From: Dyella nitratireducens
Lineage (GTDB): Bacteria; Pseudomonadota; Gammaproteobacteria; Xanthomonadales; Rhodanobacteraceae
Direction: 5' to 3'
Assembly (NCBI RefSeq): GCF_014642835.1
Contig: NZ_BMJA01000002.1
Location: forward strand, 78,519 to 142,518
Length of the DNA stretch: 64,000 bases
Shown here: positions 17,384 to 20,295 of the stretch, one piece after another
Layout: each line of letters starts with the position of its first letter
Numbering within the stretch: the stretch's first letter is position 1
Program-made: the position numbers and the translations under genes
Notes under the pieces: generated by a model
What the model was told of the DNA's origin: nothing
The model's database searches: none
Seen by the model: only the letters and a program-made list of their open reading frames with translations

Positions 17384-17989
17384 ATGGCGAACGAAGTCGT
17401 CGATCTAGGCCGCCGCCGTTTTCTCACCACGACGACTGCCGTGGTAGGGGGAGCAGGCGTAGTGGCTGCAGTTGTGCCTTTCATCAAGTCGTGGGAACCC
17501 AGTGCAAGAGCCAAGGCCGCCGGCGCCCCCGTTACCCAGTCACTGAAGAAGATCGAAGCGGGCCAGCAATTGATCGTGGGCTGGCGCAGCCTTCCGGTAT
17601 TCATCGTCAATCGCACGCCGGCACAGCTGACGGCGCTGGCGCAGCAGGATCCTCGTCTGGTCGATCCGAAGTCCGATGGCGCGTCCGCCGACCAGCAACC
17701 CAAGTACGCGCAAAACGAAACCCGCTCCATCAAGCCGGAGTGGCTGGTGATGGTCGGCATCTGCACGCACTTGGGCTGCGTTCCCAACTATGTCGGCGAA
17801 ATGAAGCCCGAGCCGTTCGATCCGAACTGGCAGGGCGGTTACTACTGCCCTTGCCACCACTCGCGCTACGACATGGCCGGCCGTGTTTACCAGGGTGTGC
17901 CTGCGCCGAAGAACATGCAGATTCCGCCGTACCACTTTGTCGACGACAACACCGTGCAGATCGGTGTGGATGCAGAGGGGAATTCGTAA
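17384..17989 (+). CDS. petA: Ubiquinol-cytochrome c reductase iron-sulfur (Rieske) subunit
   Basis: A 201-residue Rieske protein of the cytochrome bc1 complex. The start at 17384 (MANEVVDLGRRRFLTTTTAV) is preceded by GGAGAG and contains a twin-arginine-like segment before a membrane anchor. The 2Fe-2S ligands are seen in CTHLGC and CPCHHSRYD. It transfers electrons from ubiquinol to cytochrome c1. Its TAA overlaps the ATG at 17989 (TAATG), which is the ancestral petB start. Confidence 0.95.
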   Translation: MANEVVDLGRRRFLTTTTAVVGGAGVVAAVVPFIKSWEPSARAKAAGAPVTQSLKKIEAGQQLIVGWRSLPVFIVNRTPAQLTALAQQDPRLVDPKSDGASADQQPKYAQNETRSIKPEWLVMVGICTHLGCVPNYVGEMKPEPFDPNWQGGYYCPCHHSRYDMAGRVYQGVPAPKNMQIPPYHFVDDNTVQIGVDAEGNS

Positions 17990-18264
17990 TGGCGAACGTC
18001 TTCTCTAGGAGCCTGCTTTCATATTCCAAGCACCCCGCGCCGGGATCTGTTTGCGCGCAAGCCAAGGAGGAGCGAGGGCGCGTATGTCGATACGTAACCG
18101 AGCGAGGACGCGGGATTGCGGGCAAACAGACCCGGCCCTGCGGGTTGCGTCTGAGTGGCCGCCATGCGGTAGCGCGTGGCTTGGCCATACAACCAGTATG
18201 GCGCTGCGCCACGCACTACCACCTGACGGCCACTCAGACGCAACGCGGGGTACTTGGAATATGA
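17989..18264 (+). CDS. Leader ORF created at the original petB start
   Basis: The ATG at 17989 overlaps the petA stop (TAATG) and has a GAGGGG ribosome-binding site, as expected for petB. After MANVFS it runs into the inserted palindromic element and reads 85 residues of arginine/alanine-rich sequence unlike cytochrome b. It ends at TGA 18262-18264, which overlaps the ATG at 18261 used by the surviving petB frame (ATGA). It therefore probably acts as a translated leader that couples petA to petB. Its peptide is unlikely to have a function of its own. Confidence 0.55.
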   Translation: MANVFSRSLLSYSKHPAPGSVCAQAKEERGRVCRYVTERGRGIAGKQTRPCGLRLSGRHAVARGLAIQPVWRCATHYHLTATQTQRGVLGI

Positions 18265-18276
18265 AAGCAGGCTCCT
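18007..18276. mobile_element. 270-bp structured inverted-repeat element inserted in petB 5' end
   Basis: Outer inverted arms at 18007-18039 and 18244-18276 (left starts AGGAGCCTGCTTTCATATTC) pair over 33 bases with one mismatch. Inside are two further hairpins: 18040-18060 with 18116-18135 (imperfect, CTGTTTGC core) and 18144-18161 with 18227-18244 (18 of 18). The whole element can fold into a cruciform with a three-way junction. It has no transposase. Removing 269 bases joins MANVFS in frame to SIGEWVNERAPG, so it looks like a non-autonomous element or repeat insertion. Confidence 0.7.
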
Positions 18277-19562
18277 CCATCGGCGAATGGGTCAATGAGC
18301 GTGCACCTGGTTTGATGCCGGTGTACCGCAAGCACATGACCGAGTACTACGCACCGAAGAACTTCAACATCTGGTACTACTTCGGTTCGCTTGCCCTGCT
18401 GGTGCTGGTCAACCAGATCGTCACCGGCATCTTCCTCACCATGAACTACGATCCGAGCGCGAGCGGTGCGTTCGACTCGGTGCAGTACATCATGCGTGAC
18501 GTGGAGTGGGGCTGGTTGATTCGCTACATGCATTCCACGGGTGCATCGCTGTTCTTCGTGGTGGTTTATCTGCACATGTTCCGCGGTCTCTTGTACGGCT
18601 CGTACCAGAAGCCACGCGAACTGGTGTGGTTGCTCGGCATGACGATCTTCCTGGTGCTGATGGCCGAAGCCTTCATGGGCTATGTGCTGCCGTGGGGCAA
18701 CATGTCGTTCTGGGGCGCGAAGGTGATCGTGTCCTTGTTCGGCACGATTCCGGTGATCGGCAAGGATCTCGTCGAATGGATCATGGGCGATTACCTCCCT
18801 GCCGACGCCACGCTCAATCGCTTCTTCGCGCTGCACGTGATTGCGCTGCCGCTGGTGCTGCTGTTGCTGGTGGTACTGCACCTGGCCGCGCTGCACGAGG
18901 TGGGTTCGAACAACCCGGACGGCGTGGATGTGAAGCACGGCCCGAAGGGCAACCGTTGGGATCCGACCAAGCCGGCCGATGGCATTCCATTCCATCCGTA
19001 TTACACGGTGAAGGATCTGGTCGGCGTGGGTCTGTTCCTTGCCATTGCCGCCTTCATCATCTTCTTCCAGCCCACGTTCGGCGGCTGGTTCCTCGAGCAC
19101 GACAACTCCATTCCAGCGAACAATCTCGTCACGCCGCTGCAAATCAAACCGGTGTGGTACTTCACCGCGTTCTACGCGATCGTGCGCATGATTCCATCTG
19201 CCTTCGGCACGGCGGTGTGGGGTGTGCTGGGCATGTTCGGTGCGATCCTGCTGCTGTTCCTGCTGCCGTGGATCGATGCGGGCAAGGTGAAATCCATCCG
19301 CTATCGCGGCACCGGCTACAAGCTGGCGTTGACGTTGTTCGTGTTGGCATTCTTCGGGCTGGTGCTGATCGGCACGGACTCCACCGAAGAGCTGATCCCG
19401 ATGCTGTTCGGCCCGAGTGTCGACGTGACCTCCGTCGAGAACATCTTCGGCCGCATCATGGTGCTGATCTACTTCGGGTACTTCGTATTCCTGTGGCTGT
19501 ACACGCATCTTGGCTGGGAAAAGACCAAGCCGGTTCCGGAACGGGTGACGACGCATGACTAA
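18261..19562 (+). CDS. petB: Cytochrome b subunit of the bc1 complex
   Basis: A 433-residue membrane protein; MTEYYAPKNFNIWYYFGSLA, RYMHSTGASLFFVVVYLHM and the later His-bearing helices are typical cytochrome b with two b hemes and the quinol sites. The frame is open upstream to 18051, but that part lies in an inserted palindromic element. The first useful ATG is 18261, located in the right arm of the element and overlapping the stop of the leader ORF, giving MKAGSSIGEWVNERAPG. The N terminus is therefore partly rewritten by the insertion. The gene overlaps petC by eight bases. Confidence 0.93.
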   Translation: MKAGSSIGEWVNERAPGLMPVYRKHMTEYYAPKNFNIWYYFGSLALLVLVNQIVTGIFLTMNYDPSASGAFDSVQYIMRDVEWGWLIRYMHSTGASLFFVVVYLHMFRGLLYGSYQKPRELVWLLGMTIFLVLMAEAFMGYVLPWGNMSFWGAKVIVSLFGTIPVIGKDLVEWIMGDYLPADATLNRFFALHVIALPLVLLLLVVLHLAALHEVGSNNPDGVDVKHGPKGNRWDPTKPADGIPFHPYYTVKDLVGVGLFLAIAAFIIFFQPTFGGWFLEHDNSIPANNLVTPLQIKPVWYFTAFYAIVRMIPSAFGTAVWGVLGMFGAILLLFLLPWIDAGKVKSIRYRGTGYKLALTLFVLAFFGLVLIGTDSTEELIPMLFGPSVDVTSVENIFGRIMVLIYFGYFVFLWLYTHLGWEKTKPVPERVTTHD

Positions 19563-20295
19563 GCGCTACATCTCCTTCTTTGTGCTCGCGCTCGGCCTGC
19601 TGCTCGGTACCACGGCGGCGATGGCGGAAGGCCCGGAAATGCCGGATGCCGGCACCAACATCCGCGACACGGCCTCGCTGCAACGCGGCGCGCACATCTT
19701 CTTCAACTACTGTGTGGGTTGCCACTCGCTCAAGTACCTGCGCTACGAGCGCATCGCGGACGACCTCGGCCTGACCGAGGACGACGTGATGAGCAACCTC
19801 AATTTCACCGGCGGCAAGTTCGGCGATCCGGTGATCTCGCATATGCCCGAGGACGACGCGCAGAAGTTCTTCGGCAAGGCGCCGCCGGACCTGTCGCTGG
19901 AAGTGTCGGCCAAGGGTGCGAACTGGGTGTTCGCCTACCTCAACTCGTTCTATCTCGATCCCAAGAGCCCGATCGGCTGGAACAACACCGTGCTGCCCAA
20001 TGCGGCCATGCCGTTCCCCTTGTGGGAACTGCAGGGCGAACAAGTGCCGGTGTTCAAGCAAGCCAAGCCGGGCGACGATCCGGAAATCGAAAGCCTCAAG
20101 CTGCTCCACGCCGGCAAGCTGACTCCCGCGCAGTACCAGCAGGCTGCCCGCGACGTCACCAACTTCCTGGAATACGCCTCCGAACCGGCTGCCCTGCAGC
20201 GTCGCCACGTCGGCATCTGGGTGGTGCTGTTCCTGCTGGGCTTCACCTTCCTGGCATACTTGCTCAAGAAAGAATATTGGAAGGACGTCCACTGA
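19555..20295 (+). CDS. petC: Cytochrome c1 subunit of the bc1 complex
   Basis: A 246-residue cytochrome c1. A signal peptide ends near residue 24 (GTTAAMA). The heme c site is CVGCH at residues 53-57. A C-terminal membrane anchor is seen in VGIWVVLFLLGFTFLAYLL. Together with petA and petB it forms the bc1 complex that reduces periplasmic cytochrome c. Confidence 0.95.
   Translation: MTKRYISFFVLALGLLLGTTAAMAEGPEMPDAGTNIRDTASLQRGAHIFFNYCVGCHSLKYLRYERIADDLGLTEDDVMSNLNFTGGKFGDPVISHMPEDDAQKFFGKAPPDLSLEVSAKGANWVFAYLNSFYLDPKSPIGWNNTVLPNAAMPFPLWELQGEQVPVFKQAKPGDDPEIESLKLLHAGKLTPAQYQQAARDVTNFLEYASEPAALQRRHVGIWVVLFLLGFTFLAYLLKKEYWKDVH

Follow-up and report, generated by a model that had tools for sequence, protein, structure and literature searches.

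Bacteria are expected to rid their essential genes of mobile elements, and petB, the cytochrome b gene, is known to be important. The locus described here raises the question of how a petB gene can live with a long palindrome inserted directly behind its start codon. The gene is located in a 64,000-nt stretch of Dyella nitratireducens DNA (NZ_BMJA01000002.1, positions 78,519 to 142,518; hereafter the window), which belongs to a genome of 5.68 Mb in 14 contigs (G000). An earlier note, made from the sequence of the window, had proposed that petB tolerates the insertion through new translational coupling. Our comparisons support this proposal, as the same succession of start codon, leader, ATGA and restarted gene is found elsewhere and the leaders are open on the sense strand, from which we infer the coupling itself. 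We consider it likely that the palindrome is a MITE-like element that brings termination-reinitiation coupling back through its ends, which would allow it to be tolerated when inserted directly behind a start codon.

The insertion at the start of petB

In the window, the petA frame (17384-17989, + strand; read from the ATG at 17384, which is our choice of start) presumably codes for the Rieske iron-sulfur protein. It ends with a TAA stop codon at 17987-17989, which shares its A with the native petB start codon at 17989 (TAATG). As the earlier note had described, this ATG now opens a frame of 91 codons, which contains the native start and five further codons (together MANVFS), runs on through the palindrome and terminates at the TGA codon at 18262-18264 (leader ORF, 17989-18264, + strand). 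The element lies six codons into petB and itself supplies the next start codon: an ATG at 18261 overlaps the leader stop (ATGA, 18261-18264, + strand) and opens the surviving petB frame of 433 amino acids (18261-19562, + strand; MKAGSSIGEWV...), which is assigned to cytochrome b by its homologues and by family models. A weak Shine-Dalgarno-like GGGGT of putative function (18247-18251, + strand), noticed by eye, precedes this ATG by 9 nt. Downstream in the same operon follows the petC frame (19555-20295, + strand), whose product we take, from the look of the protein, to be cytochrome c1. In silico excision of 269 bases restores MANVFS-SIGEWV, as had been claimed, and with the insertion in place, the N terminus MKAGS would replace MANVFS.

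The element had originally been given as 270 bp (18007-18276). The insertion stood up to comparison, its extent did not: other copies of the family place the boundaries of a 266-bp core, GAGCCTG...CAGGCTC, at 18009-18274 (+ strand). Likewise, the outer arms of 33 nt are present as described (left, 18007-18039; right, 18244-18276, containing the restart ATG; 97% complementary by inverted-repeat pairing), as are two inner hairpins, seen by pairing and in the fold (A, 18043-18133, with arms at 18043-18063 and 18113-18133; B, 18141-18247, with arms at 18141-18180 and 18208-18247), and together they give, instead of a simple cruciform, an outer stem carrying two hairpins. Folded as single-stranded DNA, the element reaches -112 kcal/mol (z = -15.5), which none of 200 shuffled sequences equalled, and for the RNA from 17960 to 18330, for which z is -12.8, none of 100 shuffles was as good. 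The restart ATG at 18261 is base-paired within the outer stem of the predicted RNA, and therefore initiation without translation of the leader should be poor; for this ATG to become accessible, the leader would also have to be translated. Rfam searches gave three gathering-level hits in the window, none of them on the element, and three hits in six loci with copies, all under the gathering threshold (E 0.5-0.93). The window also contains a match to the ALIL pseudoknot (RF01497; 42030-42146, - strand), which we take to be a frameshift signal of some insertion sequences.

That petB has indeed been interrupted is seen from its relatives. In DNA alignments, the insertion is absent from petB in all 20 relatives compared, 15 of the same genus and five of other genera. 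The N termini of the genus relatives mostly read MANVFS(N/S/T)IGEWV or close to it, and none of the relatives has an N terminus of the MKAGS type, as might have been the case had the sequence not been inserted. Among 110 petB loci fetched, one of which (L083) was too short for testing, a match to the element in the 600 bp preceding the conserved block was obtained for the locus of the window only. As a separate observation, the petB N terminus of two near relatives (G002 and G013) is longer by an unrelated 12 bp (MANVFSNAFSSLGEWV). A petB homologue is present in 41 of 41 genomes, G000 included. Although the species is represented by one genome, and petB might in principle be decaying or the site be an assembly error, the remainder of the gene is 89-96% identical to that of the 15 genus relatives, it has a single copy in G000, and the arrangement is met again at other genes and in other genomes. 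Because of this recurrence, an assembly error appears very unlikely, and we give decay and misassembly, taken together, a negligible probability.

Spread and structure of the element family

The petB copy is one of many. G000 contains 26 matches to the element at 17 places, some of these matches being one copy read on the opposite strand. Matches were obtained in all 16 genomes of the genus (G000 included) and in 106 of 233 Rhodanobacteraceae genomes, representing 15 of 26 genera (E <= 1e-10); the family-wide counts are lower bounds, since only three candidates were scored per genome. We surveyed 156 unique full copies, after dropping flank duplicates and four copies with unplaceable ends (L330, L438, L247 and L442). 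A core of 265 or 266 bp is present in 136 of these copies, and the termini read as a rule GAGCCTG...CAGGCTC or GGGCCTG...CAGGCCC. The arms vary widely between copies and are complementary within each: in the 88 copies of exactly 266 bp, 2593 of 2904 cells (89%) are paired, compared with 63% when the right arms are dealt at random, and double changes affecting both sides are found at 28 of the 33 arm pairs, while three of the 33 positions are mostly unpaired. An ATG at position -14 is carried by 32 of the 156 copies, at 60 ends in all. With its 266-bp core, terminal inverted repeats, multiple dispersed copies and no transposase gene, the element is best read as a non-autonomous, MITE-like palindromic insertion, which belongs to a family spread through the Rhodanobacteraceae.

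Other forms of the element were also encountered. Half-size matches of approximately 130 bp, which consist of hairpin B and one outer arm, occur in G000 as well (L006-L010). At the site homologous to L277, where G010 has a full element, L294 and L300 have only TAGAGGCTCTA / TAGGCTCTA, possibly the scars of palindrome loss. In several genomes of two genera, a 265-bp variant is located before coxB (L320, L325, L456 and L469; COX2 domains were found in L456, and the other three were assigned by likeness), and this variant apparently goes back to an old shared insertion.

Host genes, restart frame and leader

The genes that host the element include petB, leuS, nusB (twice), minC (twice), purK, rsmH, galE, cheZ and tolA-like genes, among others, and the host genomes fall into six genus groups (g1, g6, g28, g30, g37 and g38). 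Among the restarted proteins, UPF0149, MinC, NusB, GalE and RsmH score above the curated cut-offs of their family models, and PurK and LeuS (260-residue fragments), TolA, CheZ and the cytochrome b of the window score below them. EVE, MlaD, DUF4880, thioesterase and COX2 domains passed the Pfam cut-offs; two of the eight proteins in the Pfam search, those of L417 and L416, had no domain hit, and the latter is called TolA-like by its likeness to L151 alone. Full-length empty sites were found in relatives for eight of the 12 sites queried (UPF0149, tolA, minC, two nusB sites, leuS, EVE and the L417 gene), and the 30 loci fetched contained no full-length relative for purK, galE, the MlaD-domain gene or rsmH. 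In G010, a copy 94% identical to that of the window lies two codons into a FecR-like (DUF4880) gene. It is flanked by an exact 3-bp TAA repeat; its leader likewise terminates in ATGA, from which the frame of the gene resumes with MKTGS. A single empty site was seen, in G008, with the sequence ATG GCC AAG ACC. The junction preceding this gene is an overlapping TGATG, and because the TAATG and TGATG junctions overlap, petB and the FecR-like gene are probably both coupled by nature to their upstream genes.

A gene lies in the restart frame at 17 of the 22 outward ATG ends that face a gene (one third expected; p = 3e-5). At all 17 of these in-frame genic ends, the TGA is in place and the leader is open up to it, compared with open leaders at 8 of the 38 remaining ends (Fisher p = 1.6e-8). 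Both p values are approximate, since copies and genomes are related. The test leaves out the orthologous ends L325, L469, L456 and L425 and, on both of its sides, the antisense end of the FecR-like copy (L134), which likewise has an open leader. Coding calls were based on a rough home-made codon score, its model derived from 32 long ORFs in the window, and these calls missed cheZ (L411), minC (L412) and nusB (L440); three of the eight open ends counted as other are in fact these genic ones, cheZ being recognised by family search and minC and nusB by their likeness to L407 and L408. Two in-frame cases are weaker: at L410, the gene's own ATG lies just past the element and the leader frame has no start, and at L320, the element is located before the gene, coxB. 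An ATG in frame with the leader, no more than 8 codons upstream, is present at 16 of 19 genic copies, picked by hand from the open-leader rows and used for this count only and not for openness, compared with 42 of 293 other ends; the remaining three have GTG or TTG. The start codon is usually located 2-8 codons before the element. A match of frames is also expected were only harmless insertions to survive.

What speaks most strongly for use of the leader, in our reading, is its openness on the sense strand. In the usual orientation, all 15 genic copies have two to three stops on the opposite strand. Three copies, those of petB, the FecR-like gene and rsmH, are reversed and have no stop in that direction, which is closed by a stop in 69 of 70 further 266-bp copies. 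Of these 70, read in the usual orientation, 25 are stop-free in the leader frame, most of the 25 lacking the ATGA, and another 26 have one stop, so that openness in this orientation is partly a family trait. The three codon positions of the leader diverge equally (0.156, 0.183 and 0.159) and no protein-level constraint was seen; selection on the leader as a protein was ruled out on this lack of codon-position bias.

These observations bear on the possibility that ribosomes initiate afresh at the ATG of the element, or at another internal start, with a Shine-Dalgarno sequence of its own, the leader being incidental. Such a start could draw on the GGGGT before the ATG at 18261 or use the in-frame ATGs at 18084 and 18198 of the petB copy, and it is compatible with an openness that is partly a family trait. 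Furthermore, the overlapping pair bioBF of E. coli seemed uncoupled in the portion of the study by Huber et al. considered here (PMC6728339). However, fresh initiation would need no open leader, yet the leaders are open at every in-frame genic end and at a minority of the others, the three reversed copies are open where nearly all further copies have a stop, and in the predicted fold, the outer stem sequesters the restart ATG. We thus regard fresh initiation as unlikely. One might also speculate that the frame of the element is fused in frame to the host protein as an N-terminal extension without any restart, in the style of the Rickettsia palindromic elements. The host frame is open across the whole element at five of 15 in-frame ATG ends (FecR-like, leuS, EVE, tolA-like and petB, whose copy is open in the petB frame itself and holds the two extra ATGs), but it is stopped 192 nt back inside the element at seven of the 15 and nearer at three others. 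In addition, a net insertion of 2 mod 3 places the start codon of the host in the frame of the leader and out of that of the host gene. A fusion appears highly improbable to us.

We favour termination and reinitiation and propose the following sequence of events. One subfamily of the element has an outward ATGA at a distance of 14 nt from its ends and, along its length, a reading frame that lacks a start. Landing 2-8 codons past a start codon and in the right phase, with a net gain of 266 or 269 bp (2 mod 3 in either case), such an element would be read through as a leader by ribosomes from the native start, which would melt its hairpins, terminate at the leader TGA and reinitiate on the overlapping ATG. 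The host protein would thereby acquire a new N terminus, and the point of coupling would be shifted, the native start now feeding a leader whose stop overlaps the new start. Selection would have purged insertions and mutations that close the leader. That ribosomes actually terminate and reinitiate at the ATGA is what we infer from this layout. According to the abstract of PMC10666635, stop and start codons are most often spaced by an overlap of 4 or 1 nt, -1 nt being the most frequent value, and a distance of about 20 nt nearly abolishes coupling.

Such a layout would explain how cells survive one family repeatedly entering leuS, nusB, rsmH and petB just inside their starts. The sites may serve as natural replicate experiments on termination-reinitiation, they suggest a route for the replacement of protein N termini, and the start sites annotated in these genera may frequently be incorrect. 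More tentatively, we suggest that the element is adapted to intragenic life, with ends and interior maintained such that an ATGA-coupled two-cistron unit is rebuilt whenever it inserts just behind a start codon, whichever way round. If true, such a portable coupling cassette would let selfish DNA colonise essential genes, giving them new N termini; judged from the sequences compared, adaptation of this kind and the survival of lucky insertions only would both fit the data.

Copies without the ATG at -14 were also followed. Among their gene-facing ends, 37 of 71 lie within 20 nt before the in-frame ATG of that gene. These copies often sit directly after the stop codon of the upstream gene, and at several junctions the left end of the element itself provides the TAG or TAA. 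Coupling via the element was considered for copies just before a gene's own ATG and dropped: 12 of 38 through-frames stop in an ATGA with the native start, and among 27 ends examined, no start codon was found that consistently feeds the through-frame.

Target sites, a candidate enzyme and known systems

The target duplications of the element are inconsistent. GAG-type copies have an exact 3-bp flanking repeat in 9 of 45 cases (shuffled mean 4.2, p 0.0075), and of 36 GGG-type copies, 30 are flanked by TA at either end, which is no better than shuffling (mean 28.5, p 0.115); two copies (L247 and L273) were left out of this count. Compared by eye with the empty site, the lengths are consistent with a duplication of 3 bp at the FecR-like gene and of 2 bp at the L277 site. 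At the eight sites with full-length relatives, all alignments to the site minus 3 bp are gapped by at least 3, which fits no duplication at several of them, and at petB no target repeat was found. The empty-site search for the GGG subfamily had few usable full-length relatives to draw on.

A candidate for the mobilising enzyme is seen in G003, which contains an 845-bp IS with a PF13340 transposase (25 transposase hits) and the ends GAGCCTGTCGTCAT. This IS is flanked by TA on each side in all 23 copies for which both ends were found. Set by eye beside the element ends GAGCCTGTTTTCAT and GAGCCTGTCCTCAT, its end is alike over a short length. The IS (L382 and its copies) also has an ATGA at the same -14 place, and the long frame holding the end of the transposase stops on that TGA. 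In G000, PF13340 gave no hit. The ends of the element appear to resemble those of an IS5-family IS, and the outward ATGA may have been inherited from IS5-type ends whose transposase frame stops on the same TGA. The excerpted text of PMC12016507 describes ISLrh (IS5 family, IS1031 subgroup) with the ends GAACCTGTCTAG and a TNA target, termini like those of the element. Unlike an IS of this family, the element has no transposase, and the likeness of the ends covers a short length and was judged by eye.

The element is palindromic and present in many copies, as are REP/BIME sequences with their RAYT, but it differs in its size of 266 bp and in showing no Y1 association. Membership in this group was rejected, as G006 and G012, two of eight genomes searched, have 22 and 16 element matches but no Y1 transposase hit, and none of 15 Y1 loci (3.2-3.4 kb each) holds a copy. 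In the open-licence literature, judged mostly from titles and abstracts, no description of a gene-restarting palindrome was found. Closer parallels are offered by the bacterial MITEs (Correia, ERIC, MITEAba12 and others), which, in the part of PMC10969869 drawn on here, are likewise short, transposase-less and dispersed, have terminal inverted repeats and are sometimes located in ORFs. Promoters, IHF sites, sRNAs and in-frame fusions are described for MITEs in the same part, whereas an outward restart ATGA is a feature of the present element, as are its inconsistent target duplications. The Rickettsia palindromic elements, covered in the same excerpt, are also palindromic and tolerated in protein-coding genes; they stay in frame and add a peptide, whereas the present element breaks the frame of its host and would restart the gene. 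Finally, overlapping gene pairs with termination-reinitiation, as presented in the excerpts of PMC6728339 and PMC10666635, have the same 4-nt ATGA overlap of stop and start codon, with the difference that here the overlap has been imported by a mobile element.
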